A stretch of DNA of 64,000 nucleotides, from NCBI GenBank assembly GCA_945878995.1, contig CAMCUN010000001.1:1-64000 (forward strand), read 5' to 3'. This DNA comes from Polaromonas sp. YR568 (GTDB lineage Bacteria > Pseudomonadota > Gammaproteobacteria > Burkholderiales > Burkholderiaceae_C). The translations under genes and the position numbers were made by a program. Below the pieces are notes generated by a model. It searched no databases, was not told the origin of the DNA, and was given only the letters and a program-made list of their open reading frames with translations. Positions 38,438 through 64,000 of the stretch are shown here, in pieces (positions within the stretch are counted from its first letter, which is position 1; every line of letters starts with the position of its first letter).

Positions 38438-38593
38438 GGTGTACTTTTCTGCCCACGGGCGTGACACGTTTCAAAACAGTTTAGGACACGATGGCCGGTA
38501 AGCGTGCGATCGCCCCATCACGCTGCCGCCCGCTCACCATTGCAAGCGGTCTTTTTTGAATCACCTGCGCCTACAGCGGCCGATGACAGCGCC

Positions 38594-39013: not shown

Positions 39014-39014
39014 C

Positions 39015-40181: not shown

Positions 40182-40187
40182 GGTTCT

Positions 40188-40988: not shown

Positions 40989-40991
40989 GGG

Positions 40992-42197: not shown

Positions 42198-42220
42198 TGG
42201 GCGGTGGTCCTTGTGTGTCT

Positions 42221-43618: not shown

Positions 43619-43630
43619 GGCTTGGCTGGC

Positions 43631-44134: not shown

Positions 44135-44167
44135 GGGTTGTCTCCGGTGGATATTGATGACAAGGCT

Positions 44168-45280: not shown

Positions 45281-45308
45281 GAGGGGAAAAACTCCGGGGT
45301 CAGACAAA

Positions 45309-45611: not shown

Positions 45612-45613
45612 GG

Positions 45614-47158: not shown

Positions 47159-47179
47159 GCTTGGCTCTCTAAGATGGGG

Positions 47180-47779: not shown

Positions 47780-47782
47780 GGC

Positions 47783-48704: not shown

Positions 48705-48707
48705 GGC

Positions 48708-49871
48708 TCAATCCAATATGGCAAAAGGATCGACCTCGATCTTCATCTCTGGGCGCAAGAGCGCTTGGCAGATCAGGCCGGTCGATGCCGGGTAAGGCGT
48801 GCGCAAGAGGGCTGCACGCACGCCGGCCACGTTGCGGTAGTCGGCCAGGGCGTTGGGCGTGACGTACTCGATGGTCTTGACCAGGTGCTCGGGCCCAGCC
48901 CCCGCAGCCTCCAGCACCTTGAGGATGTTGCGGTAGGTGTAGTCGGCCTGGGCCACCACGTCGTCCTCGTGCAGCACGCGCTCGGTGGCTGGGTCCAGCG
49001 AGCCCTGGCCGGACATGAACAGCATCTTGCCGGCCTTGACCGCCGGGCTGTAGCTGAGTTTGTCGTAGCGCGACCAGCCCGGGTTGATGCACTCTAGCGT
49101 GTCGCGCGAGGCGATAAAGTCATATTGGATCAGCGCCTCGGGATGCACCAAGCGCGGCATCATCAGGCCGGCCGCGCCGGGGTAGATGGGCCCCAGGTGC
49201 TGTTTGCGGATGCGGCCCGTGCCCTTGTACTGGGCCAGGCCATCGGCGGTGAGGTAGTCCACGGTCTTGACCACGTTGTGAAAGCCCAGGCCCAGGGCGG
49301 CCAGCATCTTGCCGGCTTTTTCAAAGATGTAGGCGGTCTGCGCGACGATGTCGCCCGCGCCGACGATGCGGCCTTGCGCATCGACCGGCTGTATGGTGGG
49401 CAGGTAGACAATGCCGGCCGAATCGCGCCCGGGCGAGGCCGAGCCCACGTCGGTGGCCGCGCCCATGGGGCCAGCGGTGACCTCGATTTCGATGAAGGCT
49501 TCTGGCCGCAGCAAGCTTTTGACCGGCACGGTATGCACCGTGGGCTGGTGCGCGCCAAAGACCTCGGCACGCACCGCAGCGGCCTCGGCATAGCGCTCTA
49601 TGCCTTCGGGCCGCACGTACTCGACGATGCGCGTCACATCGCCATAGCCCATGCCCGCAGCTTCGAGGATGACACCGATCTTGGCGTAAACGGTGCGCAC
49701 CTGGTCGGTCATGCCGCCGCGCACCACGATTTTCTTGGCCACCGGGTCGTATTCGGAAGCGGTGTGGCCTGACAGGTAAGCGCCGCGGCCCGTGCTCAAG
49801 CCCAAAGAAAAGGAGTAACGGGCGTAGTCGAACCAGGGAAAGTGCGCGGGGGTGATGGCTTGGAAGGGCAT
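48708..49871 (-). CDS. Triple RidA-domain protein
   Basis: The 387-residue protein starts MPFQAITPAHFPWFDYARYS at ATG 49871; the longer open frame upstream is antisense to the hydrolase gene. It contains three RidA/YjgF folds: about 10-130 (with GAYLSGHTASEYDP and IEIEVTAGP), 145-255 (GIVYLPTIQPVDAQGRI and IQYDFIASR) and 265-387 (KMLFMSGQGSLDP and KIEVDPFA). Canonical RidA uses an Arg in the ARTTV segment to hydrolyse enamines; the three sites here read QPTVHTV, YPGAAGL and YPASTGL, all without that Arg. It may bind or convert a pathway intermediate rather than act as a deaminase. Confidence 0.85.
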   Translation of the reverse strand: MPFQAITPAHFPWFDYARYSFSLGLSTGRGAYLSGHTASEYDPVAKKIVVRGGMTDQVRTVYAKIGVILEAAGMGYGDVTRIVEYVRPEGIERYAEAAAVRAEVFGAHQPTVHTVPVKSLLRPEAFIEIEVTAGPMGAATDVGSASPGRDSAGIVYLPTIQPVDAQGRIVGAGDIVAQTAYIFEKAGKMLAALGLGFHNVVKTVDYLTADGLAQYKGTGRIRKQHLGPIYPGAAGLMMPRLVHPEALIQYDFIASRDTLECINPGWSRYDKLSYSPAVKAGKMLFMSGQGSLDPATERVLHEDDVVAQADYTYRNILKVLEAAGAGPEHLVKTIEYVTPNALADYRNVAGVRAALLRTPYPASTGLICQALLRPEMKIEVDPFAILD

Positions 49872-49897
49872 GGCAATGAGGGTTGGAGGTCGGATGT

Positions 49898-51565
49898 TTA
49901 AATGGGCTGGCTGCGCCACCATTGGCACAGGCCTTCGGTGTGTTGCTCGGCCGGGCAGGCCTGGGCAGGACTCAGGCCTGCCGGGGGATTCAGGCTCAGG
50001 TGGGCATAGGTGTCGCGCTCGCTGCTCAGGCACAGCCACGGGGCCTGCAAGCGGGGCAAAAGGCCTGCCCAGTCGCAGGTCCAGTTCGCTCGCCAGGCGC
50101 CGGCGTAGCTTTCGGGTTGCTTCATGGCTTCGAGCACGCGCGCGTTCAGACGCGCAGGCTCGATGTTCGAGGGCTGCGGTTTTTTGTGGGCGTGGCGCCG
50201 CTCGTACCAGGGCCACCACAGCTCGGCGTCGCGCAGGTGGTGCCAGGCACGCAGCCAGTGCGCGCCTTCCGAACTGGGCAGGACATCGGGAATACCTTGG
50301 GAAAGCAGTTGATCGCGGAGGGCGTCCTCCACCCACAAGGGTGCGTCCAGCACCACCGAGCGCACGCGTGCTGGCTGATGCACGGCCAGCGCGCAGGCCA
50401 GTGCGGCGCCGCCCTGGTGGCCCCACACATGAACCTGCGCAATGCCCATCTGGTCCAGCACATGGCACACCGCGCGCAGCCAGCTCGCAGGGTCCTGCGG
50501 GTTGCCGGGCAGCGGGTCGGATTCACCGTGGCCGGGCAGGTCCAGGGCCAGCACGGGACGCTCTTGGCCAATGGCGAGCATGGCCTGCTCATACAGGCGT
50601 GAGGAGCCGGGCGCATGGTGCAGCACCAGCACCGGTGTGCCCGGCAGGTCCTCACCCGAGCGGCGCACGGCCAGTTGCGCGCCGTCCAAATCGACGTAGG
50701 ATTCGGTGAGGCGACCGGGCAAGGCCTGGCAAGCCACTGGCTCGGGCACGGGTGCACGGGCCGGGTGGCGCTCGAGCAGGCTCAACTCACAGGCGCTGGC
50801 CGCATCAAACTCGCGCGGCACCTCGGCCATCCACACACCCTCTGGGTAAAGGTGGCGGGTCAGGTACATGCTGTCTCCTGGCCGGTTGCCAAAGCACACC
50901 GGCACCTTGAGGTCTCCCACCACACCCAGGGCGCGATGGCGAAAGGGCGCGGCATAGCCCACGCGGTAACCGTCGCCAGCCTGCAGCATCTCCACCACGC
51001 CGCGATGCAGAAAGTCCAGTTCGGGCGCGTCGGTGTCCGAGCGGTTGGCGTCCTGTTGCTTGTTCCAGGGCCAGAACACATGCTGGTCGCGGTAACGAAA
51101 CCACAGGCGCAGCAGGTGAGCGCCGTCCCACTGCGGCACGATGGGCTCCAGGTAGGCCTCTAGCTGCGCGTCGGTGTAGGCCGCCGCAAAGACGGCAAAG
51201 CCGTCGGCCAGGGCCATGGCGCAGCGGTCTGGGTGGCGGGCGGCAAATTCCACGGCGATGGAGGCCCCGGTGTGACGGCCGTAGCTGGCCGCCTGCGCCA
51301 TGCCCAGAGCTGCCAAGGTGTCCGCCAGGGCGTCGGCGAAATCTTCGACCGACGGACTGGCCTGGGGCAGCGGGTCGGACAGGCCAAAGCCCGGGGTGTC
51401 AAAGGCCAAACAAGTAAAGCGCTGACCAAAGAGGGCCATCAGCGGCCGCATGACCTTGGACGAACAGGGCGAGGCATGCAGCATGGCCAGCGCCGGCCCC
51501 TGGCCCGCGCGCAAATAGTGCACCCGGCGCGAACCCACTGTGACGAAATGCTTGGTGACCCTCAT
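49898..51565 (-). CDS. Tandem alpha/beta-hydrolase fusion protein
   Basis: The 555-residue protein has two alpha/beta-hydrolase-like domains, about 1-290 and 290-555. Domain 1 has the elbow GRHTG (96-100) with His98 at the nucleophile position. Domain 2 has GHQGG (382-386) with Gln384 at that position. Both domains share RDxxxxWPW in the lid (RYRDQHVFWPW near 158-167 and HLRDAELWWPW later), showing internal duplication. No domain keeps the usual Ser/Asp/Cys. The start is ATG 51565, 10 nt after the acyl-CoA dehydrogenase stop. Function is unknown. Confidence 0.75.
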   Translation of the reverse strand: MRVTKHFVTVGSRRVHYLRAGQGPALAMLHASPCSSKVMRPLMALFGQRFTCLAFDTPGFGLSDPLPQASPSVEDFADALADTLAALGMAQAASYGRHTGASIAVEFAARHPDRCAMALADGFAVFAAAYTDAQLEAYLEPIVPQWDGAHLLRLWFRYRDQHVFWPWNKQQDANRSDTDAPELDFLHRGVVEMLQAGDGYRVGYAAPFRHRALGVVGDLKVPVCFGNRPGDSMYLTRHLYPEGVWMAEVPREFDAASACELSLLERHPARAPVPEPVACQALPGRLTESYVDLDGAQLAVRRSGEDLPGTPVLVLHHAPGSSRLYEQAMLAIGQERPVLALDLPGHGESDPLPGNPQDPASWLRAVCHVLDQMGIAQVHVWGHQGGAALACALAVHQPARVRSVVLDAPLWVEDALRDQLLSQGIPDVLPSSEGAHWLRAWHHLRDAELWWPWYERRHAHKKPQPSNIEPARLNARVLEAMKQPESYAGAWRANWTCDWAGLLPRLQAPWLCLSSERDTYAHLSLNPPAGLSPAQACPAEQHTEGLCQWWRSQPI

Positions 51566-51575
51566 TGCCAATGCC

Positions 51576-52733
51576 TCAATAGCTTTTGGGCAGACCCATG
51601 CGCTCGCCCAAAAAGTTCTTGACCATCTCATTGGAGATGGGGCTGAAGGGGCCGAGCCGGGCGTCGCGGAACAGCCGCTCCATGGGGCTTTCTTCCACCA
51701 GGCCGTAGCCGCCCAGCACACGCATGCACTTGTCGGTGGCGCGCAAGGCGGTTTCGGTGGCGGCGAGCTTGGCCATGGCCGCCTCGGTGGCACAGTCGCG
51801 CCCTTGGCTGAGCAGCCAGGCGGACTTGTAGGTGAGCAGGCGGATTTGCTCGAGCTCGGTGGCCACTTCGGCCAGCGGATGCTGCACGGCCTGGAACTGC
51901 CCGATGGGGCGGCCAAAGGCCTGCCTGTCCTTGGCGTATTGCAAGGCCTGGTCCAGCGCAGCGCTGGTGATGCCCACGTACATGGCCGCGCAGAGAATGC
52001 GCTCTTCGTCCAGGCTGGCCAGCAGGTGGTACCAACCCCGGCCGCGCTCACCGAGCACCGCGCCTTCCGGTGCGGTGGCGCCGTCGAGGAACACCTCGCA
52101 GGTGCAGGCTGCGCGCATGCCCATGAGCTCCAGGCGGCGAACCGTGACCCCGCTTTGCTGACGCGGCGTGAGCACCAGCGACAGGCCGCGGGCGCGCTTG
52201 CCCTCCTGCTCGGGCTCGGTGCGGCACAGCACCAAGATGGCATCGGCATCATCGGCCAGCGAGGTGTAGAGCTTTTGGCCCTGCACGGTCCATTGGCCTT
52301 GGTCCAGGCTGGCGCGGGTCTTCAGGGCCAAGACATCGGTGCCGCCGCCAGGCTCGCTCATGCCAAAGCCCATGAGGAACTCACCCCTGGTCAGCAGCGG
52401 CAGGTAGTGGGCCTTTTGCTCGGGCGTGCCCACCTCCATGAAGATGCGCGCGGTCATGGAAGTCAGCAGCCAGTCGGTGGCCAGGGAGGGGAAACGGCGC
52501 GACAGCTCCTCGCAGACGATGGCCCCCTGCACGATGTCGCCGCCGGCACCGCCATAGGCCTCGGGCACGCTGATGCCCAGCCAGCCTTGCGCGGCCAACT
52601 TGGGCCAGATGCTGCGTGGAATTTTTCGCGCTTGATCGTAAGTGCGTATGGTTTTTTCGGGCAGCTCGGCATCGAGGAAATGCCTCACGCTGTCGCGCAG
52701 TTGCTGGTGTTCTGGGAGCGTGTCGAAATTCAT
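51576..52733 (-). CDS. Acyl-CoA dehydrogenase
   Basis: The 385-residue flavoenzyme has the typical segments GWLGISVPEAYGGAGGD, MGFGMSEPGGGTDV (FAD/substrate), a central strand domain, and the C-terminal QFQAVQHPLAEVATELEQIR and VLGGYGLVEESPMERLFRD. It dehydrogenates an acyl-CoA to the 2-enoyl-CoA, feeding the hydratases downstream. It is separated from the double-cupin gene by 28 nt. Confidence 0.9.
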   Translation of the reverse strand: MNFDTLPEHQQLRDSVRHFLDAELPEKTIRTYDQARKIPRSIWPKLAAQGWLGISVPEAYGGAGGDIVQGAIVCEELSRRFPSLATDWLLTSMTARIFMEVGTPEQKAHYLPLLTRGEFLMGFGMSEPGGGTDVLALKTRASLDQGQWTVQGQKLYTSLADDADAILVLCRTEPEQEGKRARGLSLVLTPRQQSGVTVRRLELMGMRAACTCEVFLDGATAPEGAVLGERGRGWYHLLASLDEERILCAAMYVGITSAALDQALQYAKDRQAFGRPIGQFQAVQHPLAEVATELEQIRLLTYKSAWLLSQGRDCATEAAMAKLAATETALRATDKCMRVLGGYGLVEESPMERLFRDARLGPFSPISNEMVKNFLGERMGLPKSY

Positions 52734-52761
52734 GCGACTGTCCTTTGGGTTTGTTCGGTGC

Positions 52762-53640
52762 TCATGAATGGCTGGCCGGTGTGAAGTTCATCCATCCATT
52801 GACTTTGGCATAGATCAATGCGCCCTCAGCACTGGCCATGGCAGGCTCTACACGGCCTGCAGGGCGGTGTACAAAGCAGCCAGCGCCGAGCGCCTGCGAT
52901 CCCCACCGCACACTGCCCGAGAGCACGAACATCTGCCAGTCCACCGCATGGGCGCCCGCGCTGCCCTGCTGGTAGCCCGGTGCCAGGCGCAGCAGCAGCG
53001 TCTGCTGGCCGGTGCGTGGGTTGCTGCTGAGCACCCGCACTGCCAATTGCGTCAGGTCAAAGCCCGTCAAAGCCGCTTGGGAGCGCGCAAAGTCTGGGCC
53101 GGGCTGCCAGACCAGCTCGCCCGTGCGAACCTGGCGCAGCCGGCCCCGGCTGCCCAGGGCCGCTTCGTCCAGGGTGGGCTTGAGGTGGTTGCTGCCTGCT
53201 TGCTGCGGCGCGCACACTTGGCGGGTGACCGGCCCGCTCTCGTTGGAGCGGCCTTCAAAGCCAAGCAGCAACTGTACGCCTGGCCCGGTCTTGGCATGGT
53301 GAATCCAGCCGGGCGGGCGCCAAAAATAGTCACCTGCCTGGAGCGTGCCCTCACCGTCGAGCACCACCTCGCCGCTGAGCAAAAAACCCTCTTCGACCGA
53401 GTCATGGCAGCAATGGGTCAGGTCGCTGTAGCCGGGTTCGAGCTCCACCAGGTCCAGCCGGCGCGTGGTGAGCGGATCGAGGTAAAGGTTTTTTTGGCGG
53501 TACTTGGCAAAGTTGGCCTGCACCTGCTCGGCCGGCCCCAGGTTGTCGCGAAAAGCAGGGGCCAAGGTGCGCAGGTAGTCGAGACCGCTCTCCCATGGCA
53601 TGTCATGGGTGTTCAAGATGGAGGTTTGCAGCAAGGCCAT
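52762..53640 (-). CDS. Two-domain cupin (DUF4437-like) protein
   Basis: The 292-residue protein starts at ATG 53640 (MALLQTSILNTHDMPWESGL). It has two cupin-like halves: the first with CHDSVEEGFLLSGEVVLDGEG and RPPGWIHHAKTG, the second with YQQGSAGAHAVDWQMFVLSG and CFVHRPAGRVEP. The first half keeps a His/Glu metal site. Such proteins are sometimes anti-sigma-like or oxygenase-like; the role here is unknown. It follows livG by 11 nt. Confidence 0.72.
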   Translation of the reverse strand: MALLQTSILNTHDMPWESGLDYLRTLAPAFRDNLGPAEQVQANFAKYRQKNLYLDPLTTRRLDLVELEPGYSDLTHCCHDSVEEGFLLSGEVVLDGEGTLQAGDYFWRPPGWIHHAKTGPGVQLLLGFEGRSNESGPVTRQVCAPQQAGSNHLKPTLDEAALGSRGRLRQVRTGELVWQPGPDFARSQAALTGFDLTQLAVRVLSSNPRTGQQTLLLRLAPGYQQGSAGAHAVDWQMFVLSGSVRWGSQALGAGCFVHRPAGRVEPAMASAEGALIYAKVNGWMNFTPASHS

Positions 53641-53651
53641 GGTGAAGTGTG

Positions 53652-54440
53652 TCAGTGGCCAGCGCCAGCTTGGCCAGCGGCGACCGGCTCGCCTAGGTAG
53701 ACCTGCTGCACCAAGGCGCTGGCGCGCACCTCTTGCGGTTGGCCCACGGCCAAGACCTTTCCTTGGTGCAGCACGGTGATGCGACTGGCCACCGCAAAGA
53801 CCACCGCCATGTCGTGCTCGGTGAACACGCATGACACCCCCAACTGCTGGGCCACCTGGTGCACCAACTGGATGGAGGCCAGGCGCTCTTTCGCGGCCAT
53901 GCCGGCGGTGGGCTCGTCCAGCAGCAGCAGCTTGGGTTGGCTGGCCAGGGCAATGGCCAGCTCCAGGCGTTTTTTGTCGCCATGGGCCAGGGTGCGGGCG
54001 GTTCGCCCGGCTTGCGCGGCCAGGCCCACCCGCTCAAGCAACTCCAGCCCGCGGGCCACATGCTGGCCGCCAGCAGCCGTCCAGCCATTCCAGGTTTGCC
54101 GGGCATGGGCGGACAAGGCCACCTGCACGTTTTCCAGCACCGTCATGCCATGGAACACGCGGGTAATCTGAAAGGTGCGGCCCATGCCCAGGCGGGTCAG
54201 CTGGTGCGGCGCCAGGCCCGAGACCTTGCGGCCGTCAAAGTGAATCTCGCCTTCGTCGGCCTTGAGCAGGCCCGTCAAGGCGTTGAAAAACGTGCTTTTA
54301 CCAGCCCCATTGGGGCCGATGATGGCGTGAAATTCACCAGGCTTGACCTGCATGTCCACGTTTTGCAGGGCCTGCAGGCCGCCAAAGCGTTTGGAGATGC
54401 CGCGCGCCTCCAGCACAAAGGGGCTGGCGGTGGTGCTCAT
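53652..54440 (-). CDS. livG: ABC transporter ATP-binding protein, LivG type
   Basis: The 262-residue ATPase has Walker A GPNGAGKST (near 42-50), signature LAHGDKKRLELA, Walker B LLLLDEPTAG and the typical LivG C-terminal VLAVGQPQEVRASALVQQVYLGE. It powers a branched-chain amino-acid/aromatic-acid-type (HAAT) importer together with LivM/LivH and the LivK and LivF encoded divergently. It overlaps livM by 4 nt. Confidence 0.93.
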   Translation of the reverse strand: MSTTASPFVLEARGISKRFGGLQALQNVDMQVKPGEFHAIIGPNGAGKSTFFNALTGLLKADEGEIHFDGRKVSGLAPHQLTRLGMGRTFQITRVFHGMTVLENVQVALSAHARQTWNGWTAAGGQHVARGLELLERVGLAAQAGRTARTLAHGDKKRLELAIALASQPKLLLLDEPTAGMAAKERLASIQLVHQVAQQLGVSCVFTEHDMAVVFAVASRITVLHQGKVLAVGQPQEVRASALVQQVYLGEPVAAGQAGAGH

Positions 54441-55357
54441 CGCTCGGCCCTCTTGAAGCGTCCGACCAGGCCGGTGGGCATGAGCAGCACCAGCAACACG
54501 ATGATGATGCCCATGGCCAGCGGCCAGTATTCAGTCTTGCCGCTGATCATGACTTCCAGCACCACATAGACGGCGGCGCCCACGATGGCGCCATAAAAGG
54601 ACTGCACGCCACCGAGCACGGCCATCACCACCGGGGTGGCGCTGGCCGTCCAGTTGAGCCAGGAGGGAAAGACGTTGCCCGAAGAAAAAGCAAACAAAGC
54701 CCCCCCAAGTCCGGCAAAACCCGCACTGATGACAAATGCAGCCCACTGGTGACGGCGCACATGCACGCCCACGTACTGCACCCGCAGCGGGTCGTCCTTG
54801 AGGGCCCGCAGGGTTAGGCCGAAGGGCGAGAGCACCAGGCGGCGCAGCAGGTACACACTGGGCAGGCACCAGCACAGGGCATAAAAATAGTAGCCCAGGG
54901 GCTGTCCCAGCACGCCGGGCGGCTTGAGCCCCGTGATGCCGTCGTCACCGCCAGTCAGGCCCGAGGCCTTCAGGGCCACGGTGTAGAGCAGCATCTGGAA
55001 GGCGAAGGTGAGCATCGAAAAGTAGATGCCGGAGCGGCGCACCGAAAAATAGCCGATCACGGCTGCCGCGGTCGCTGAAACCGCCATGGCCACCAAGGGC
55101 GCCAGCGTGAACATCCACACCACGTCCAGGCCGCTGCGCTTGAAGAAAATGGCTGCACTATAGGCGCCCACGCCAAAAAAAGCTGCATGGCCAAAGGACA
55201 GCATGCCACCAAAACCCAAGAGCAAATTAAAGCTCAGCGCGTACAGGGCAAAGGCCAGCACTTCAATGGCAATGAAGATCCAAAAATCGCTCAGGCCAAA
55301 AGGCAGCAACACCAGCAAGGTGCATACCAACAGGGTCCAGGCACGCTGCGAACTCAT
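54437..55357 (-). CDS. livM: ABC transporter permease, LivM type
   Basis: The 306-residue membrane protein has about eight to ten helices and the LivM motif GGMLSFGHAAFFGVGAY, then the cytoplasmic LTLRALKDDPLRVQYVGV loop (EAA-like). It forms the inner-membrane channel with LivH. It overlaps livH by 4 nt and livG by 4 nt, so the three genes are translated together. Confidence 0.93.
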   Translation of the reverse strand: MSSQRAWTLLVCTLLVLLPFGLSDFWIFIAIEVLAFALYALSFNLLLGFGGMLSFGHAAFFGVGAYSAAIFFKRSGLDVVWMFTLAPLVAMAVSATAAAVIGYFSVRRSGIYFSMLTFAFQMLLYTVALKASGLTGGDDGITGLKPPGVLGQPLGYYFYALCWCLPSVYLLRRLVLSPFGLTLRALKDDPLRVQYVGVHVRRHQWAAFVISAGFAGLGGALFAFSSGNVFPSWLNWTASATPVVMAVLGGVQSFYGAIVGAAVYVVLEVMISGKTEYWPLAMGIIIVLLVLLMPTGLVGRFKRAER

Positions 55358-56268
55358 TCGGGACTCCCGAACAGGCCCCAGGGCCTCACGATGAGCACGA
55401 CGGCCATGCAGACAAAGGTCAGGACCACCGACCAGCCAGGGAAAGCCAGCACACCGTAGGCATTGATCACGCCCACCAGCAAGGAGGCGACCAGCGCGCC
55501 CATCACGCTGCCCATGCCGCCTATGACCACCACCACAAAGGCGTCAATGATGACTTGCACATGCAGACCCGGCCCCACCGAGACCACGGGCGCAGCCAGC
55601 GCACCGCCCAGCCCCGACAAGGCCGCGCCCAGGGCGAACACCGAGGTGTACAGCCAGCGCGTGTTGACACCCAAGGCGCCCAACATGGCCCGGTCATTGG
55701 TGGCCGCCCGAATGAAGATGCCCCAGCGCGTCTTGTGCAACAGAAACCACAATGCCACGGCCACCAGCACGCCCATGAAAATCAGGAACAGCCGGTAGTT
55801 GGGAAAGGTCACGCCCAAAGCGCGGGCTGCGCCGGTCAGCGCTTGCGGCGCGTTCATGGATCTGTCCTCATTGCCCCAGATGAGCTTGACCAGGTCTCCC
55901 ATGATGAACACCAGCGCAAAGGTCATGAGCAACTGAAACTCGTGAGGAGCGTTGTAGATGCGGCGCAGCAAGCCCCATTCGATGCCTGCGCCCACCACGG
56001 CCAGCGTCGCCATCGCGGCCACCAAGATGAGTGCAAACATCCAGCCCCCCTCACCCAGAACGGACGACAGGCTGACGGCCACAAAGGCGCCCAGCATGAA
56101 CAGCACGCCATGGGCGAAATTGAGGATGCGCTGCACGCCAAAAATAAGCGACAGGCCCGCTGCAATCAGGAACAGCAGCATCCCGTTGGAGATGCCCGCC
56201 AGGGTTTGCCGCGCCAGCACCGTGGGGTTCAGCATCCATCCGAAATGTTGCGCAAAAAAATCGATCAT
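55354..56268 (-). CDS. livH: ABC transporter permease, LivH type
   Basis: The 304-residue membrane protein starts at ATG 56268 (MIDFFAQHFGWML). It has GLSLIFGVQRILNFAHGVLF, the family motif, and FIRAATNDRAMLGALGVNTR, the EAA-like loop. This is the first gene of the - strand operon that runs to 38594. Two TTGTCCGGACAA-type palindromes lie 72-99 bp upstream. The upstream open frame (to 56367) runs through these sites and was rejected as coding. Confidence 0.92.
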   Translation of the reverse strand: MIDFFAQHFGWMLNPTVLARQTLAGISNGMLLFLIAAGLSLIFGVQRILNFAHGVLFMLGAFVAVSLSSVLGEGGWMFALILVAAMATLAVVGAGIEWGLLRRIYNAPHEFQLLMTFALVFIMGDLVKLIWGNEDRSMNAPQALTGAARALGVTFPNYRLFLIFMGVLVAVALWFLLHKTRWGIFIRAATNDRAMLGALGVNTRWLYTSVFALGAALSGLGGALAAPVVSVGPGLHVQVIIDAFVVVVIGGMGSVMGALVASLLVGVINAYGVLAFPGWSVVLTFVCMAVVLIVRPWGLFGSPE

Positions 56269-56339: not shown

Positions 56340-56351
56340 TTGTCCGGACAA
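56340..56351. promoter_or_regulatory. TTGTCCGGACAA operator, site A
   Basis: A perfect 12-bp palindrome lies in the divergent livH/livK gap. A second near-copy is centred 16 bp away. The same sequence occurs at 58566, suggesting one dedicated repressor (a GntR/FadR-type regulator would fit; not in the window). Confidence 0.75.
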
Positions 56352-56355
56352 AAAC

Positions 56356-56367
56356 TCGTCCGGACAA
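56356..56367. promoter_or_regulatory. TCGTCCGGACAA operator, site B (11/12 match)
   Basis: It is the second palindrome of the pair, 16 bp from site A centre to centre, differing by one base. Paired sites upstream of the 19-gene operon suggest cooperative binding. Confidence 0.7.
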
Positions 56368-56424
56368 AATACGGGTTTACCCAAGGTGGCTGGTATTTAA
56401 AGGTCAAGCCTAGGGCATGATCGG

Positions 56425-56454
56425 TTGACAGTCTTCAAGTTGTCGATTCAGAAT
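56425..56454 (+). promoter_or_regulatory. Sigma-70-type promoter of livK
   Basis: Consensus -35 TTGACA (56425-56430) and -10-like CAGAAT (56449-56454) are separated by 18 bp. Transcription would start near 56461, about 23 nt before the livK start codon. Confidence 0.5.
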
Positions 56455-56483
56455 CAAAGCATCATCAACCGAGGAGCATGCTT

Positions 56484-57725
56484 GTGTACACCTTGATCAA
56501 GAATCGAATTTTGCCGGTCCTGGCTTTGTCAATGGCCATGGCATCACCTGCCGCCTACGCTCAGGCCGCCAGTGGCAATGACCCTATCAAACTGGGTCTG
56601 ATCGATATTTACAGCGGGGGTTTTGCATTCATTGCCGACTCGATTCGAACCGGGTTTCAAATTGCGGTGGACGAAGCCAATGCTGCGGGCGGTCTGAAGG
56701 GGCGCCCTTTTCAATTGGTCAGCGCCGACATGGGTGCGCAGGTTGAAAAAGCGGTGACCGAGGGGCGCCGCATGATCCTGGAGGACAAAATCAAATTTGT
56801 CACGGTGGGGATTCACAGCGGCGCGGCCATCGCGGTCGGGAATTTGGGCAAGGAGCACAAGGTCTTGGTCACCGGCGGTTTTGCCACGACCAAGCGCCTG
56901 ACCGGCGAGTCTGGCCATCCCTACATCTCGCGGGCCAACCTGTCCACGGTGGAAATCGGCAGCGTGATTGCCGAGTACATCAAAGCCAGGCCCGACATCA
57001 AGCGCATCTCGACCATTGCGCCCGACTACGAGTACGGTCAGCAATTCATCGAGGACTTCATGCGCGCCATCAAGGTGGCGCGTCCCGATGTGGTGGTGGT
57101 GCGCCAGGAGTGGTCCAAGTTGGGTGCGACAGATTTTTCTGCGCACGTCACCGCCTTGCAGGCCCAGCCCGTCGACATGATCGTCAATGGCGGTTTTGGC
57201 GCTGACTTGGTGAACCTGCTCAAAGCGGCCAAGGACTTCGGCCTGTTCACCCCCAAGACCCAGTTCTTCACCCACGGTCTGGACCTGGTGAAGATGAGCT
57301 CGGTCAAGGACCTGCTGCCGGCCAACACGGCTGGGACCGTGTGGTACCCGTTTTATGCGCTCAATTCTGACAAGTCTAAAAGCTTTGCCGCCGAAGTGGA
57401 AAAGCGCATGAAGACCTATCCCACCGGCCCCACCACGGTGGGCTATTCGGCTGGCAAAATGGTTGTGGAATCGATCCGCAAGGCGGGCACCGCCACCGAC
57501 GTGGAAAAAGTCATACAGGCCATGTCCACCATCAGCTTTGAAGGCCCTACAGGCATGACCAAAGTGCGTGGCTGTGACAACATGGCCATGTTCAATTTTT
57601 ATGTGGGCACGGTCAAGCGCGATGCGGCCTTGCCCGACGGCATTGGCGTGACCGACATCAAGACCTACCGCACCGAGGACTACGCGCGGCCTTGCCAGGA
57701 ACTGTTGCGCTCACGCGGAAGCTAA
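56484..57725 (+). CDS. livK: ABC transporter substrate-binding protein, LivK type
   Basis: The 413-residue precursor has a signal peptide ending AYAQA. I prefer GTG 56484 (seven bases after GAGGAG) to the in-frame ATG 56478, which is only one base after that site. The mature part has LGLIDIYSGGFAFIADSIRTG, GLKGRPFQLVSADMG and the FDTIxPDY-like TIAPDYEYGQQF segment, as in periplasmic binding proteins for aromatic/branched acids. It would capture the acid for LivHMGF. It is divergent from livH and adjoins livF. Confidence 0.9.
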   Translation: MYTLIKNRILPVLALSMAMASPAAYAQAASGNDPIKLGLIDIYSGGFAFIADSIRTGFQIAVDEANAAGGLKGRPFQLVSADMGAQVEKAVTEGRRMILEDKIKFVTVGIHSGAAIAVGNLGKEHKVLVTGGFATTKRLTGESGHPYISRANLSTVEIGSVIAEYIKARPDIKRISTIAPDYEYGQQFIEDFMRAIKVARPDVVVVRQEWSKLGATDFSAHVTALQAQPVDMIVNGGFGADLVNLLKAAKDFGLFTPKTQFFTHGLDLVKMSSVKDLLPANTAGTVWYPFYALNSDKSKSFAAEVEKRMKTYPTGPTTVGYSAGKMVVESIRKAGTATDVEKVIQAMSTISFEGPTGMTKVRGCDNMAMFNFYVGTVKRDAALPDGIGVTDIKTYRTEDYARPCQELLRSRGS

Positions 57726-57728
57726 TCC

Positions 57729-58436
57729 ATGAGCTTGTTGCAGGTCGAGGGCCTGGAGACGGCGTATGGCGACAGCCAGGTCTTGTTCGGTATCGATCTC
57801 GAGGTGCACAAAGGCGAAGTGGTGGCCTTGCTCGGGCGCAATGGCGCGGGCAAAACCACCACGCTGTCGTCCATCATGGGCCTGGTGCCGCCGCGCAAGG
57901 GCAGCATCACCTTCAAAGGTCAGTCCATCGGTGGCAGCGAGCCCTTTCAAATCTGCCGTGCAGGGCTGGGCTATGTGGCCGAGGATTGCCGCCTGTTCAC
58001 CTCCCTGACCGTGGCAGAGAACCTGGAAACCGCGCGCATGGATGCGCGTGGGGGCGGCGCCCCTTGGGGCGTGGCCCAGGTGCTGGACTTGTTTCCCGAT
58101 ATCCGGCTGTTTTTGAACCGCAAGGCCGGCGCCTTGTCGGGTGGTCAGCAAAGAATGGTGGCCATGGCGCGCACCCTGATGGGCAACCCAGACTTGATCT
58201 TGCTTGACGAGCCCTCTGAGGGTCTTGCACCTCTGGTGATTGAAGCCATGCTGCAGCGCCTCAAGCAGCTCAAGTCCGCTGGGCAAACCGTGCTGATCAG
58301 CGAGCAGAACCTGCGTTTTGCCAATGAACTGGCCGATCGGGTCTACATCATTGAAAAAGGCCAGATTCCCTACCAAGGCACGCCGGCCGAGCTCAATAGC
58401 CTGCCTGAGGTGCGTCAGCAATACCTGATGGTGTGA
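57729..58436 (+). CDS. livF: ABC transporter ATP-binding protein, LivF type
   Basis: The 235-residue ATPase has Walker A GRNGAGKTT (36-44), signature LSGGQQRMVAMA, Walker B LILLDEPSEG and the LivF-type ending. It lies 3 nt after livK. With livK it completes the importer whose permeases and other ATPase are on the opposite strand. Confidence 0.93.
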   Translation: MSLLQVEGLETAYGDSQVLFGIDLEVHKGEVVALLGRNGAGKTTTLSSIMGLVPPRKGSITFKGQSIGGSEPFQICRAGLGYVAEDCRLFTSLTVAENLETARMDARGGGAPWGVAQVLDLFPDIRLFLNRKAGALSGGQQRMVAMARTLMGNPDLILLDEPSEGLAPLVIEAMLQRLKQLKSAGQTVLISEQNLRFANELADRVYIIEKGQIPYQGTPAELNSLPEVRQQYLMV

Positions 58437-58445
58437 GCCGCGCCA

Positions 58446-58476
58446 GCAGGGCTGACCCGCCCAGCCCTGCGTTTTT
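58446..58476 (+). terminator. Rho-independent terminator after livF
   Basis: The perfect 9-bp stem GCAGGGCTG/CAGCCCTGC (58446-58454 with 58462-58470), with a 7-nt loop, is followed by GTTTTT, 10 nt after the livF stop. Confidence 0.88.
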
Positions 58477-58525
58477 CAAGCCTGCGCCGCTCCCCGTTTT
58501 CAAGACCCTTCTGGGTCTGATCTGT

Positions 58526-58554
58526 TTGACAGCAGCGCCTCCTTAAAGTAAATT
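58526..58554 (+). promoter_or_regulatory. Sigma-70-type promoter of the acyl-CoA dehydrogenase gene
   Basis: Consensus -35 TTGACA (58526-58531), 17-bp spacer, -10 TAAATT (58549-58554). Transcription would start near 58561, so the operator at 58566-58577 lies just after the start site, a classic repression position. Confidence 0.7.
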
Positions 58555-58565
58555 CACTCGGCATC

Positions 58566-58577
58566 TTGTCCGGACAA
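58566..58577. promoter_or_regulatory. TTGTCCGGACAA operator, site C
   Basis: It is an identical copy of site A. It is about +5 to +16 relative to the promoter at 58526. A half-site TTGTCCGG recurs at 58633-58640. Confidence 0.75.
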
Positions 58578-58674
58578 ATATTGACTTCGTCCCGCATGTA
58601 TTCATCGGCCGGAAGACCTGGCCCAATCTGTGTTGTCCGGGCTTTCCAACACCTCTTGCCCCAAAGGAATCCCC

Positions 58675-59847
58675 ATGTCAAAGCTCGACACAGCCCAAGA
58701 TCAAGAACAAGAACAAGAGCAGCAGATGCTCGATGCCATTGAAAAATGGCTGGCGCGCGACGTGCGCCCCCATGTGCTCAGGCTCGAGCATGCCGACGAG
58801 TACCCCACCGCGATGGTCGAGCAGATGAAGGAGATGGGCTTGTTCGGCGCCACCATCAGCACAACCTACGGCGGCTTGGGCCTGAAGGCCGGCACCTACG
58901 CCAAAATCGTCGAGAAGATCTCGACCACCTGGATGTCTTTGACCGGCATTTTCAACAGCCACCTGATCATGGCGGCCTGCGTCGAGCGCAAAGGCACCGA
59001 GGCGCAAAAGCTGCACTACCTGCCCAAGTTCGCCACCGGTGAAATTCGCGGTGGTTTGGCGCTGACCGAGCCAGACGCTGGCACCGACTTGCAAGGCATC
59101 AAGATGCGGGCCCGCAAGGATGGCGATGATTACGTCATCAACGGCACCAAGACCTGGATCTCCAACGGCATTGAAGGCAGCTGCTTTGCCCTGCTGGTCA
59201 AGACCGATACCAGTGCCGAGCCCGCTCACAAAGGCATGTCTTGTTTCATTGCCGAAAAAGGGCCGGGCTTTACCGTGTCTAAAAAGCTGGAAAAGCTCGG
59301 CTACAAGGGGATTGACAGCGCCGAACTCATTTTCCAAGACTACCGCATCCCCGCCAGCAAACTCATTGGCGGCCAAGAAGGCCGTGGCCTGCAAACGGCG
59401 CTGGGCGGCCTGGAGCTCGGACGCATCAACGTGGCGGCCCGGGGCTGCGGTGTCGCCGCTGCAGCACTGCAAGACTCCTTGAGGTACGCGCAAATTCGCC
59501 ACACCTTTGGCAAGCCAATTGCCGAACACCAGGCGATTCAGCTCAAACTCGGTGAAATGGCCACGCGCTTGCAAGCGGCCAGGTTGTTGACCTATGACGC
59601 GGCGCGCATTTACGACAAGGGTGAGCGCTGTGACCTGGAGGCGGGCATGGCCAAGTACTTCGCCTCAGAGGCTGCGCTTGAAAATGCCACCGAATGTCTT
59701 CGCATCCATGGTGGCTACGGCTATTCCAAGGAGTACCACGCAGAGCGCTACTACCGGGATGCCCCTCTGATGTGCATTGGCGAAGGCACCAACGAGATGC
59801 AGCGTCTCATCATTGCCCGTCACATGCTGGCCATGAATCCTGTTTGA
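58675..59847 (+). CDS. Acyl-CoA dehydrogenase
   Basis: The 390-residue flavoenzyme starts at ATG 58675 after AAAGGA. Its N-terminus has a Gln/Glu-rich stretch (DQEQEQEQQ, about residues 8-16). It contains GLALTEPDAGTDLQGI, then GTKTWISNGIEGS, and the C-terminal LRIHGGYGYSKEYHAERYYRD and GEGTNEMQRLIIA. It dehydrogenates an acyl-CoA, probably the product of the pathway in the liv-linked operon. It has its own promoter and an operator just after the start site. Confidence 0.92.
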   Translation: MSKLDTAQDQEQEQEQQMLDAIEKWLARDVRPHVLRLEHADEYPTAMVEQMKEMGLFGATISTTYGGLGLKAGTYAKIVEKISTTWMSLTGIFNSHLIMAACVERKGTEAQKLHYLPKFATGEIRGGLALTEPDAGTDLQGIKMRARKDGDDYVINGTKTWISNGIEGSCFALLVKTDTSAEPAHKGMSCFIAEKGPGFTVSKKLEKLGYKGIDSAELIFQDYRIPASKLIGGQEGRGLQTALGGLELGRINVAARGCGVAAAALQDSLRYAQIRHTFGKPIAEHQAIQLKLGEMATRLQAARLLTYDAARIYDKGERCDLEAGMAKYFASEAALENATECLRIHGGYGYSKEYHAERYYRDAPLMCIGEGTNEMQRLIIARHMLAMNPV

Positions 59848-59948
59848 GGCGACGCACGGGCAGACCTGGGGCAGGGTGATCCACGGAGTTGGATCTAGAC
59901 CTCAGGCGCCCGCAGTTGACTGGGCCCGCCTTGATGTGGCGGGTGTGC

Positions 59949-60692
59949 TCAGTGCTTTTCCAGCAGGGCGCCAAAGCCGCTCATGCGGTCGGTGATTCCC
60001 GACTCGCGCAGCGCATGCCAGTAGATGGCGGTGTTGATGGCCACCACCGGACGCTTGAGCCAGACCTCGGCTTGGCCGGCCAAGCGCGCCATGGCCAAGT
60101 TGGTGCCCACTTGCACGATGCCGTCTATGTCGTCGCCGTCAAGTTCGAGCAGGGCATCTCGCAATTCGGTCTCGCTGACATGGGCGATCTTGACCGGACT
60201 TTCGCATTTGAGGCCTTTGATGCGCATGACATGGAAACCCGACTCTTCGAAAAAACGCGTGACATTGCGGTCTCCCACCGGCATGTAGGGCGTGATCACG
60301 GCGATGCGCTTCATGCCCAGCGCTGCAAAAGCCGCAGCGCAGGCCTCAGAGCCCATGGACACGGGCAGCCCAGTTTTTTGCAGCAGGTGTTTTTTGAGGT
60401 CTTGGCTGGCCTTGAGCCCGTCCCAGAAGGTCTCGGCCGAGATGCCCAGCACCAAGCGGTCGGGCTCGCAGGACATGGCTGAATCCACGGCCTGGTCCTG
60501 CGCATCGGCGATCAGGGTGATCAGCCGCTGAAAGTCTGCGTCGTCCTTGAGCGCGATGTTGGGAATGCGTATGCGGCTGATGTGGTTGGTCACGCCCGGC
60601 GGCCGCATGTCGTCGAATTCCGGTTGCACGCTGGTGTTCGTGGAGGGAATCAGAACGGCAAATTTTTTGCGCCAACCGATCGCGTCGCCCAT
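59949..60692 (-). CDS. Asp/Glu racemase / maleate isomerase family protein
   Basis: The 247-residue protein starts at ATG 60692, six bases after GGAG; an ATG at 60704 is in frame but lacks such a site. The family pattern is KKFAVLIPSTNTSVQPEFDD, GLPVSMGSEACAAAFAALGM and a final WHALRESGI. At the two catalytic Cys positions it has GISAETFWDG and VQVGTNLA (Gly196), so neither Cys is present. It is a different subgroup from the protein at 37664. Function is unknown. Confidence 0.75.
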   Translation of the reverse strand: MGDAIGWRKKFAVLIPSTNTSVQPEFDDMRPPGVTNHISRIRIPNIALKDDADFQRLITLIADAQDQAVDSAMSCEPDRLVLGISAETFWDGLKASQDLKKHLLQKTGLPVSMGSEACAAAFAALGMKRIAVITPYMPVGDRNVTRFFEESGFHVMRIKGLKCESPVKIAHVSETELRDALLELDGDDIDGIVQVGTNLAMARLAGQAEVWLKRPVVAINTAIYWHALRESGITDRMSGFGALLEKH

Positions 60693-60721
60693 GGAAAACT
60701 CCATTAATAAATTCAGCCTAA

Positions 60722-60733
60722 ATTGTATACATT
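60722..60733. promoter_or_regulatory. GntR/FCD-type operator-like sequence ATTGTATACATT
   Basis: It nearly matches the TTGTATACAA pattern bound by some FadR-type GntR proteins. It lies in the divergent promoter region between the Asp/Glu-racemase-family gene and the cupin gene, 29 bp before the former's start. Confidence 0.4.
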
Positions 60734-60796
60734 GGCCTCATGCAAACCATGGATTGACCGCCTGTGAGCTGGATGCGCCTTCTTTTTTTCAAGTCA

Positions 60797-60808
60797 ATTG
60801 TCGACAAT
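60797..60808. promoter_or_regulatory. Palindrome ATTGTCGACAAT
   Basis: A perfect 12-bp palindrome of the TTGT..ACAA type lies in the same divergent gap, 65 bp before the cupin start. With the related site at 60722 it suggests control of both genes by one GntR-type regulator. Confidence 0.5.
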
Positions 60809-60872
60809 GGCTCAGCACGGTGATAGTCTGTTTCCATACCGATTGACCTTTTGATGCAAGAAAGCTTGAACG

Positions 60873-61274
60873 ATGACCACAACCTCTGATCCACGCTATA
60901 TCGCCCCGACGTCCGGTTTCTTCAGCACATTGGCGGACATTGCCACCGAGCGCCTGGGCTCGGTCGAGGGTGTCAAGCCCAAGGGCAAGGTTGAGGTGCG
61001 ACGGGCCATGGTGGGTCAGGACATCCTGATGCTGCATGTGCTGCGTGAAAAAGGCTTGATCGATCCGTTGCACAAGCACGACGACCATGAAACCGTGGCC
61101 TACCTCATTCGCGGCAAGCTGCGCTTGGTCATAGGCGGCGAGGAGTTTATTGCCACCCCGGGCACGTCCTGGATCCATCCCCGCGGCGTGGAACACTTTA
61201 GCGAAGCCCTGGAGGAGTGCGAGCAAATCGAGATCAAGTCACCGCCTAAGAAAACCTGGGAGACCCTGGACTGA
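60873..61274 (+). CDS. Cupin-domain protein
   Basis: The 133-residue protein has one cupin domain: HKHDDHETVAYLIRGKLRLV (motif 1 with two His and a Glu) and PGTSWIHPRGVEHFSEAL (motif 2). The metal site looks intact. It lies 1 nt before an Fe(II)/2-oxoglutarate-oxygenase-like gene, so the pair is co-transcribed. Reaction unknown. Confidence 0.82.
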   Translation: MTTTSDPRYIAPTSGFFSTLADIATERLGSVEGVKPKGKVEVRRAMVGQDILMLHVLREKGLIDPLHKHDDHETVAYLIRGKLRLVIGGEEFIATPGTSWIHPRGVEHFSEALEECEQIEIKSPPKKTWETLD

Positions 61275-61275
61275 G

Positions 61276-62082
61276 ATGGGGCGCACCATGCAAGTGCCGC
61301 CCCCCACCTGGACCGCAGAGGGTGAGTTCGATCTGAACACTGAGAACCTTCGCCTGTTGCTGGACAACCGCATTGCGGTGATTCGCATCCCCGGATTTGC
61401 CACGCCCGCCGAATGCAAGAGCTTTGTGGCCGCTGCGCGCAGTGGCCCCATCAAGTACTACAGCGTGGCCACCCGCATCGGCTACATCGGCCTGGCCCAG
61501 TACGAATACCGCTGGGGCCGGCCCAAGGAGGACTTTTTTGAGGCGGTGCCCCAGGCTCGGCGAGAGCTCGATGAGGTGATTTCTCATTGCAGCTTCAACC
61601 CCATGGAGCGCCTGATCGCCCGGCTGCAAGCCGTCTGGCCTCGCCCAGTGGGCGTGGCACAGGAAGAGATGGGCCTCTACTACGCCGGCATCATTCGCTT
61701 TACCGGAGAGGGCGTGGCGCTGCACTGTGACTGGGCACCTCTGAACTCGCCCCACTATGCGATTGGACAAATAGACGGCCAGTTGGGCTGGAATTTTTTT
61801 GCCGAAGAATTGGCCACCGGCGGACAGACCACCGTGCACAACGCGCCCTGGGCGCCCGAGGTCAAGCCCGGCGACATTCCGCAAAGCTATGGGCTGGACC
61901 CAGCCCTTGTGGCCGGCTCACCCAAGGCGGTCTACCAGGCCACGGCTGGCGATGTGGTGATCTTTAACACCCGCAATCCGCACGAGATTGCCGGCGGCGT
62001 GGCCGAGCCTGGTGGCAGCCGCATCTCCATTGGCTCTTTTGTCGGTCGCATGCCCGACCACCAACTGATGCTGTGGTCATGA
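61276..62082 (+). CDS. Fe(II)/2-oxoglutarate-dependent oxygenase-like protein
   Basis: The 268-residue protein has the double-stranded beta-helix metal triad: H150-x-D152 in LHCDWAP, His236 in NPHEIAGG, and Arg249 in SRISIG, the likely 2-oxoglutarate anchor. The stretch GIIRFTGEGVALHCDW is typical for 2OG oxygenases of the prolyl-hydroxylase-like type. It probably hydroxylates a small molecule or performs oxidative cleavage. ATG 61288 is an alternative start with GGGG before it. Confidence 0.78.
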   Translation: MGRTMQVPPPTWTAEGEFDLNTENLRLLLDNRIAVIRIPGFATPAECKSFVAAARSGPIKYYSVATRIGYIGLAQYEYRWGRPKEDFFEAVPQARRELDEVISHCSFNPMERLIARLQAVWPRPVGVAQEEMGLYYAGIIRFTGEGVALHCDWAPLNSPHYAIGQIDGQLGWNFFAEELATGGQTTVHNAPWAPEVKPGDIPQSYGLDPALVAGSPKAVYQATAGDVVIFNTRNPHEIAGGVAEPGGSRISIGSFVGRMPDHQLMLWS

Positions 62083-62092
62083 GCGGCAGGCC

Positions 62093-62314
62093 ATGAGCGT
62101 CGAGTTGCGCACTGACATGCTGCACCCGGGCCAGCAGGGCGGCTTCTTGGCCCTCATGGCCGAGGAGGGCAGCGCCATAGGGCGGACCATCCTGGGCCGC
62201 TTGCTGGGCTTTTACACCTGCGACATGGACAAGCGCATCCTCATGCCGGCGCCGTTTGAGGCGGCTCAAAGCCTGGATTGGCAAGGTCCTTGGCGGCCTG
62301 AAATACCAACCTGA
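62093..62314 (+). CDS. Small protein of unknown function
   Basis: The 73-codon frame starts 11 nt after the oxygenase-like gene and begins MSVELRTDMLHPGQQGGFLA. It has no signal peptide or membrane helix. I recognise no family. Placement directly in the operon and normal codon use support a real gene, but a chance frame is possible. Confidence 0.5.
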   Translation: MSVELRTDMLHPGQQGGFLALMAEEGSAIGRTILGRLLGFYTCDMDKRILMPAPFEAAQSLDWQGPWRPEIPT

Positions 62315-62350
62315 AACTCGGCCACATACGGACATACCCGATGCCGTAAT

Positions 62351-62362
62351 TTGTTCGGACAA
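62351..62362. promoter_or_regulatory. TTGTTCGGACAA operator, site D (11/12 match)
   Basis: A palindrome close to sites A and C lies 16 bp before the dctQ-type ATG. It links this TRAP transporter to the liv/acyl-CoA dehydrogenase regulon. No strong Shine-Dalgarno sequence is seen between it and the start codon. Confidence 0.65.
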
Positions 62363-62377
62363 CACAAAATTCAGTCC

Positions 62378-63013
62378 ATGAACACTTCAGTCAATTCTTC
62401 GGTTGCTCCGGTACCGCCCAACAATGATGACGGTTTGCTGGGTGCTGCGCTGCTGGGCGCGGCCAGGGTCTCGCGCTGGCTGGCCCGCATCGGTGGGGCC
62501 ATGATGCTGGTCTGTGCCATCTTGGTCACGCTGGACGTGGTGGTTCGCGCTGCCTTCAAGGTCACCTATTTCGAGAGTTTCGAGCTGTCCACCTACGCCT
62601 TTGCCATCGCCACGGCGCTGGGCCTGTCGTATGCGCTGGTCAGCCGCGCCCACATCCGCATCGAGGTGCTGTACATGTTGCTGCCTGCGCGGCGGCGCGG
62701 CTGGGTGGACCTGTTCGCCTATGTGGTGCTGGCGGTCTGTGCCCTGACGCTGCTGTACTGGAGTGCGCAGCTGGTGCTGGGCAACTACCAAAGTGGTGCG
62801 CGGTCCAACTCTTCGTTGTCCTTGCCGCTGGTCATTCCGCAAGGCATCTGGCTGGTCGGCCTGGCCTGGTTTGCCTTGCTCTCAGTGCTGTACGCCTTGC
62901 TCGGCCTGCGCCTGTGCCTGCGCGGCCGGCCTGAGCAAGCCCATAGGCAGTTGGGTGTGGCCTCGCTGGAAGAGGAAATCGAAGCCAACGTGACCAGGAA
63001 ATCCTCACCATGA
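62378..63013 (+). CDS. dctQ: TRAP transporter small permease (DctQ family)
   Basis: The 211-residue protein has four predicted membrane helices and the segments MMLVCAILVTLDVVVRAAF, LSYALVSRAHIRIEVLYMLL and a final QGIWLVGLAWFALLSVLY. It pairs with the DctM encoded next (ATGA overlap). The periplasmic receptor of this system is not in the window. Confidence 0.88.
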   Translation: MNTSVNSSVAPVPPNNDDGLLGAALLGAARVSRWLARIGGAMMLVCAILVTLDVVVRAAFKVTYFESFELSTYAFAIATALGLSYALVSRAHIRIEVLYMLLPARRRGWVDLFAYVVLAVCALTLLYWSAQLVLGNYQSGARSNSSLSLPLVIPQGIWLVGLAWFALLSVLYALLGLRLCLRGRPEQAHRQLGVASLEEEIEANVTRKSSP

Positions 63014-64000
63014 TGCTCACCACTGTTTTGTTGTTGCTGTTGCTTGCAGGCGGCAGCGTGTTCGTGGCTGCCGTGCTGGGGGTGCTGGGCACCACGCTGG
63101 CGCAGCTTTTTTCGAGCTTTCCCCTGCAGCGGGCCTTGGGCGAGATGGCCTGGAGTTCGAGTGCAGACTTCATCTTGGTGGCTGTGCCCATGTTCATCCT
63201 CATGGGCGAGCTGCTGCTGCGCTCCGGGGTCACAGACAACATGTACACCGCCTTAGACCGCTGGGTGGGACACATCCCCGGCGGGTTGATGCACACCAAC
63301 GTGGCGGCCTCGGCGGTGTTTGCCGCCACCTCGGGCTCGAGCATCGCCACAGCGGCCACCATAGGCACCATCTCCATCCCGAACATGGATCGTTATGGCT
63401 ACAAGGCACCGCTGTTCCTGGGCACGATTGCCGCTGGGGGTACGCTGGGCATCCTGATCCCGCCCAGCATCAACATGGTGCTTTATGGCGCCATGTCCGA
63501 AACCTCGGTGTCTGAGCTCTACCTGGCGGCCACCATTCCTGGCCTGATGTTGGCCCTGATTTTTTCCATCTACGTCTACATCGCCTGCAAGATCGATCCT
63601 AGCTTGGGGCCCAAGCGTGAGCCGGCGCCCTGGGGTGAGCGCTTTCGCGCCCTGGTGCATCTCATGCCGCCTTTGATGCTGTTCATGCTGGTGGTCGGCT
63701 CCATCTACGCGGGCCTGGCCACCGCCACAGAGGCTTCGGCCCTGGGCGTGGTCGGCGCGCTGGGCTTGGTGGTGGTGCGCCGGCGCCTGAGCATAGACAT
63801 GCTGATGCTTTCCTTTGAGAGCACGGTGCGCACCACGGCCATGGTCATGATCATCGTGATCGCCGCCTTTTTCTTGAACTTCGTGCTCTCGACCCTGGGC
63901 CTGACCGATGCGGCCGTCAAATGGGTGGGTAAGTTGCAGTGGTCACCCAATACCATTTTGCTGTGCATTGTGCTGCTCTACATCGTTCTTGGTTGCTTTG
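63010..64000 (+). CDS. dctM: TRAP transporter large permease (DctM family), 3' partial
   Basis: The frame is open to the window end (330 codons seen; the family is usually about 430). It has PMFILMGELLLRSG, ATSGSSIATAATIGTISIPNM and GTLGILIPPSINMVLYG, all DctM hallmarks. Its ATG overlaps the dctQ stop. It would form the channel of a second TRAP importer, apparently controlled with the liv genes. ATG 63013 is an alternative start. Confidence 0.92.
   Translation, partial: MMLTTVLLLLLLAGGSVFVAAVLGVLGTTLAQLFSSFPLQRALGEMAWSSSADFILVAVPMFILMGELLLRSGVTDNMYTALDRWVGHIPGGLMHTNVAASAVFAATSGSSIATAATIGTISIPNMDRYGYKAPLFLGTIAAGGTLGILIPPSINMVLYGAMSETSVSELYLAATIPGLMLALIFSIYVYIACKIDPSLGPKREPAPWGERFRALVHLMPPLMLFMLVVGSIYAGLATATEASALGVVGALGLVVVRRRLSIDMLMLSFESTVRTTAMVMIIVIAAFFLNFVLSTLGLTDAAVKWVGKLQWSPNTILLCIVLLYIVLGCF

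Follow-up and report, generated by a model that had tools for sequence, protein, structure and literature searches.

We analyzed the first 64 kb of the 128-kb contig 1 (C1) of Polaromonas sp. YR568, hereafter the window, in which a 12-bp palindrome, TTGTCCGGACAA, recurs upstream of genes of a 43-kb catabolic island of 41 genes. Together with related sites further along the contig, these palindromes are very probably the operators of a GntR-family repressor with a UTRA effector domain, encoded at C1:74297-75052, that co-controls importers and catabolic units and is relieved by a ligand. We regard it as a new regulon run by a known kind of regulator through a variant operator rather than as a new kind of system. 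Much of an anonymous island can now be treated as a single regulon open to testing, its regulator and operator both named, and the box allows the same regulon to be sought in other Proteobacteria. The four putative operators in the window are:

56340..56351: operator 1, TTGTCCGGACAA, in the 209 bp that separate the divergent starts of livH (56268, minus strand) and livJ (56478, plus strand)
56356..56367: operator 2, TCGTCCGGACAA, 16 bp centre to centre from operator 1
58566..58577: operator 3, TTGTCCGGACAA, 97 nucleotides (nt) upstream of the ATG (58675) of the acyl-coenzyme A (CoA) dehydrogenase gene ACD2
62351..62362: operator 4, TTGTTCGGACAA, 15 nt upstream of the ATG (62378) of dctQ, the small permease gene of a tripartite ATP-independent periplasmic (TRAP) transporter

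The initial annotation had placed identical copies at 56340 and 58566 and 11/12 copies at 56356 and 62351, each in a promoter region and with no copy elsewhere in the window. A scan of all 64 kb confirms this shared palindrome: operators 1 and 3 are exact, operators 2 and 4 carry one mismatch each, all four precede gene starts, and the window holds no further place within one mismatch. Operators 1 and 2 form a pair 71 and 110 nt from the livH and livJ start codons, respectively, and operator 3 begins 11 nt past the TAAATT of a promoter-like TTGACA-N17-TAAATT at 58526-58554, again as annotated. Two places, at 20284 and 60072, match with two mismatches. With up to three mismatches the window holds 29 matches, against a shuffle mean of 22.5, and 9 of 100 shuffles reach 29; because this total is near chance, we take the signal to be the near-perfect copies. 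The half-site annotated at 58633 (TTGTCCGGGCTT) is weak, with three mismatches, and was not counted.

Extending the scan to the genome (4,145,272 bases on 154 contigs), we found that the two exact copies of TTGTCCGGACAA are the only ones. Allowing one mismatch, the check suggested with the initial annotation, returns eight places, half of them in the window, versus three for a backward-read control. We refined the pattern to WTGTNCGNACAW after these sites had been seen. It occurs at nine places, on C1, C35 and C80 only (one is C35:15398), versus two for the backward control. Seven of the nine lie within 22 kb of contig 1, a clustering with a chance of about 5e-12 as a simple bound given nine places and a pattern refined on these same sites. 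Some further places were read by eye and not taken as targets. C32:13745 (TTATCCGGACAA) precedes an integrase-like gene amid unrelated content, and the one-mismatch places on C57, C70 and C80 appear inside or at the start of genes, the C57 place resembling a TctC gene and the C80 place lon. A looser copy on C70, TGGTCCGGACAA, lies 10 kb away from another GntR.

GntR domains occur at 20 places in the genome (18 above the Pfam cut-off), of which one is on contig 1: a gene for a protein of 251 aa at C1:74297-75052, which begins 10.3 kb beyond the end of the window. The initial annotation had called for an off-window GntR with the site in its own promoter, and here TTGTCCGAACAT ends 46 nt before the ATG; its interpretation of an off-window regulator is thus supported. 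None of the contigs carrying the other 19 GntR places contains WTGTNCGNACAW in the genome scan. The regulon is also larger than the one first annotated, with four more sites outside the window, all with arms that resemble TTGT/ACAA and are separated by four bases:

68518-68529: ATGTCCGTACAA, 24 nt upstream of the PuuE-like gene 68554-69438 (start chosen by eye)
74239-74250: TTGTCCGAACAT, 46 nt upstream of the GntR gene; a divergent PaaK-like ligase gene lies 14 nt away
75100-75111: TTGTACGGACAT, preceding a second TRAP operon (start 75161)
78159-78170: TTGTCCGTACAT, preceding a further acyl-CoA dehydrogenase gene with its ATG at about 78294 (chosen by eye)

By domains and fold, the regulator is a GntR/UTRA protein of the HutC subfamily. 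Its GntR winged-helix domain (PF00392) scores 72.3 bits against a cut-off of 27 and its UTRA domain (PF07702) 33.1 bits against 23.8. The AlphaFold model of a 96% identical protein (L051; mean predicted local distance difference test score 84) has DasR, YvoA (NagR) and PhnF chains as its top Foldseek matches. The regulator scores under the cut-offs of all 25 NCBIfam models listed, and on the HutC equivalog TIGR02018 it reaches 91.7 bits, below the cut-off of 220. It is rare: among 399 genomes of the bacterial family, six, its own included, have a match at 1e-30.

In several proteobacterial groups, relatives of the regulator have the same predicted sites both close to their own genes and close to orthologous targets. 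Across the best 80 loci kept from a contig search for regulator homologues (more existed), NTGTNCGNACAN occurs 96 times in 1.33 Mb, versus nine for the reversed control. At all five loci with a 68-96% identical GntR match (L051-L054 and L057; L054 and L057 come from one assembly), a site starts 58-103 nt upstream of the match. We compared site-bearing contigs from seven related genomes with the 41 island genes. In these contigs livH has no match at 1e-12, and the tandem hydrolase of the island has only 31-33% matches. An adjacent site is kept in our genome, G399, G400 and G401 by both the PuuE-like gene and the block of ACD3 and CoA transferase, in these four and G402 by dctP2 (the second TRAP binding protein), and in our genome, G399 and a Tistrella plasmid by ACD2. 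The G399 counterpart of operator 3, TTGTCCGTACAA, has a changed base and keeps the consensus. The plasmid, pTM2 of the alphaproteobacterium Tistrella mobilis, carries a compact version of the island (identities: PuuE-like 58%, TRAP dctM 57%, dctP 55%, ACD2 79%), with TTGTCCGGACAA preceding the PuuE-like/TRAP genes and TTGTCCGGACAT preceding ACD2. Among 48 sites from our genome and the seven related genomes (loci G403_C93 and G403_C151 left out), the base two before the box, which lies outside the pattern, is A in 82%, giving AKTTGTMCGKACAAMT, and free position 5 of the box is C in 66% and A in 27%.

The regulator resembles HutC-subfamily members (HutC, NagR/YvoA, DasR, PhnF) in combining a GntR winged helix with a UTRA domain, in having a site in its own promoter, and in a palindrome whose GT and AC are spaced by 4 nt, found in all eight proposed sites, with M and K at inner positions. 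Such a palindrome is usual, not universal, in the HutC subfamily. According to Suvorova et al. (PMC4494728), the subfamily is defined by its C-terminal domain, its consensus is NyGTMTAKACNy, and position 39 of the helix-turn-helix (HTH) motif correlates with the central operator bases. The difference lies in the centre, which is CG in all eight of our sites and not the TA of the consensus, and we consider the regulator a variant HutC-subfamily member for this reason. Its recognition helix, SRHT, carries a His aligned with a Met of YvoA/NagR (Met49; PMC4333415).

A CG-centred box, TTGT/ACAA arms and a His at HTH position 39, as in these sites and the SRHT helix, are shared with Bacillus subtilis AraR, whose box is At(T/A)tGTaCGTAcaa(A/T)T (PMC4218819) and whose His39 makes a water-mediated contact to G and T; His39 with G is reported for AraR and the YtrA subfamily (PMC4494728). 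Only the reading head is alike, and AraR governs arabinose use in Bacillus. The C-terminal effector domain of AraR is LacI-like and sugar-binding, whereas our regulator has a UTRA domain. AraR was the only bacterial system found in our literature search for GntR and CG-centred strings. None of the papers listed by this and our other literature searches, which did not extend to subscription journals, supplements or RegPrecise, concerned the present regulon; TTGTCCGGACAA as a string turned up only in a Drosophila context, and related strings gave no listed title on GntR.

We collected 247 unique GntR genes, 88 of them with His and 43 with Met at the helix residue in a hidden Markov model alignment, and sought own-promoter boxes in the 400 nt upstream by a centre-blind rule. 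Neither set was selected by DNA sites: most of the His set derives from a search with peptide patterns containing SRHT, and the Met set derives from 139 loci taken from the longer lists of a UTRA search. Boxes were found for 25 of 88 His genes (21 CG only, 4 other) and 17 of 43 Met genes (15 TA only, one both, one other), versus three and none, respectively, in a 400-nt coding control; the association of His with CG and Met with TA has a Fisher value of 4.7e-8, kinship ignored. A whole-locus comparison (55 of 88 His versus 2 of 43 Met) was not used, the His loci being much longer. A tree of 58 of the 106 His and Met rows has one change of centre, two of residue and one independent pair, and because the centre changes only once, the count is not independent evidence. 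We therefore regard the putative code, His with CG and Met with TA, as a lead; AraR, which belongs to another subfamily and has His39 and a CG box, is a separate case in its favour. The putative code yields a residue-to-base prediction inside the HutC subfamily, with His versus Met at the helix and CG versus TA at the centre. On pTM2, the UTRA regulator nearest the sites (L319 16681-17409) has Met in its recognition helix beside CG-centred boxes. It is a possible exception to the rule, unless a Tyr-type relative on the plasmid, 26% identical to our regulator and with ATGTCCGGACAA about 1.3 kb upstream, acts instead.

Several results weigh against the regulon as proposed. In G400 and G401, the 600 nt upstream of dctQ hold no counterpart of operator 4, and in G399 its place falls at the contig end. 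At 1e-60, livJ is found in one of the seven genomes (G399), where it is cut by the contig end, so the liv operators are not comparable. In G403, G404 and G366, whose GntR is 36-40% identical, sites flank the GntR region and none is directly upstream. No such box occurs in 4.1 kb of three genomes of the same genus that have the nearest ACD2 homologues (67-69%), and a box is missing from the 400 nt upstream of 63 of the 88 unique His-type GntR genes.

The G403, G404 and G366 contigs (L157, L158, L149-L152, L046, L165) hold many CG-centred boxes, seven on one G404 contig. Several adjoin stretches without a match to island genes, suggesting a related, differently composed regulon.

From the computed sites, their clustering, the regulator gene and its co-conservation with the targets, we infer binding, repression, induction, a ligand and a substrate. 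A GntR dimer would sit on TTGTMCGKACAA boxes overlapping or just after promoters and keep its own gene low, together with the liv importer, a 19-gene run, the acyl-CoA dehydrogenase ACD2, the two TRAP importers, the PuuE-like hydrolase and the dehydrogenase/CoA-transferase block. Once the UTRA domain bound the substrate, or an acid or CoA ester derived from that substrate, the dimer would leave the DNA, and the units would be induced together. We call the protein a repressor because of where its sites lie and how its family usually acts. The GntR protein is unlikely to be an activator, or both, instead: the distances of the operator 1/2 pair from the two start codons would suit an activator too, but operator 3 after a promoter-like pair and operator 4 within 15 nt of a start are repressor positions, the UTRA relative NagR/YvoA represses (PMC4333415), and DasR is labelled a repressor in database entries.

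Still less probable is that the boxes serve a different regulator, such as another GntR, an IclR or a LacI protein, acting on the same island. The genome does hold 20 GntR-domain places, the window itself contains a LacI-family gene (30083-31120), and the pTM2 UTRA gene nearest the sites has Met rather than His. However, WTGTNCGNACAW is absent from the contigs of the other GntR places, relatives of the C1:74297 GntR in several proteobacterial groups carry it beside their own genes, and pTM2 also has the Tyr-type relative with its upstream ATGTCCGGACAA. Chance clustering of a common palindrome is hardly credible: contig 1 composition alone predicts 6.7 occurrences of WTGTNCGNACAW per genome versus the nine seen, but seven of these fall before starts within 22 kb, and the clustering recurs beside orthologous genes in related genomes.

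Beyond repression by the C1:74297-75052 protein, we tentatively offer a broader reading that we do not favour over its alternatives: a proteobacterial clade of UTRA-GntR proteins with His (rarely Tyr) might read AraR-like TTGTMCGKACAA boxes and here command much of the 43-kb, 41-gene island. In such a widespread clade, His or Tyr would replace Met at the base-reading position 39, and AraR-like boxes would follow. The compound would perhaps be an imide or amide, considering the old-yellow-enzyme-family protein, the PuuE-like hydrolase and the amidase, and its branched dicarboxylate product would then pass through CoA transfer, dehydrogenation and hydration to a final cleavage by a lyase. An imidase with a PuuE-type fold is known from bacteria. 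An imide- or amide-type precursor as the island substrate is a guess, and a cyclic-imide pathway speculation. The PuuE-like protein matches PuuE allantoinase structures (cf. PMC3084791), and on the NCBIfam allantoinase model it scores 244.6 bits, under the cut-off of 424.6.

The island codes for one liv and two TRAP importers, CoA ligases and transferases, acyl-CoA dehydrogenases, MaoC-type, HpcH/HpaI and MmgE/PrpD proteins, a thiolase, an old-yellow-enzyme-family protein, an amidase, the PuuE-like hydrolase and Amdase-like proteins. The nearest PDB entry to one MaoC-type protein is a beta-methylmalyl-CoA dehydratase. By gene content alone, the island is like itaconate/methylsuccinate clusters (PMC12290011) in uniting an MmgE/PrpD protein and an acyl-CoA dehydrogenase with a CoA transferase, a hydratase and a lyase; it differs in adding the PuuE-like hydrolase, amidase, CoA ligases, Amdase-like proteins, and two TRAP and one liv importers. 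The units at the window sites are:

37664..56268, minus strand: run of 19 frames from livH down to an Amdase-like gene
First part of the run: livH, livM, livG, cupin, acyl-CoA dehydrogenase, tandem alpha/beta hydrolase, triple RidA
Middle of the run: FAS1-dehydratase-like, MaoC-like, a protein without Pfam match, AMP ligase, FMN oxidoreductase (old yellow enzyme family)
End of the run: MaoC/mesaconyl-CoA hydratase-like, MmgE/PrpD, CoA transferase III, HpcH/HpaI, thiolase, ChsH2-like, Amdase-like
56478..58436, plus strand: livJ-type binding protein and livF-type ATPase (livF named from sequence alone)
58675..59847, plus strand: acyl-CoA dehydrogenase ACD2
62378..64000, plus strand: start of the TRAP operon dctQ-dctM (dctM to 64302, dctP to 65392, an EamA-type gene to 66309)

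Genes of the run were named by Pfam scans, except livG, livM and livH, named from sequence alone. The initial annotation had called it a 19-gene operon. The run of 19 minus-strand frames stands, and 16 of its 18 junctions overlap or have gaps of at most 33 nt (starts of four frames chosen by eye); the other two gaps, of 126 and 333 nt, mean that it may be more than one transcript. Some island genes have no box of their own, for example the Amdase-like and cupin genes (59949-61274) and MmgE2 (66325). The divergent Amdase-like/cupin promoter contains other palindromic boxes, at 60723-60732 (TTGTATACAT) and 60798-60807 (TTGTCGACAA), with a 2-nt spacer. Because this spacer suits a FadR-type GntR, a second regulator may act there inside the island. 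Within the 19-gene run, the gene at 48708-49871 (minus strand) contains three tandem RidA (L-PSP) stretches, and the single frame at 49898-51565 (minus strand) holds two alpha/beta hydrolase stretches, as if fused.

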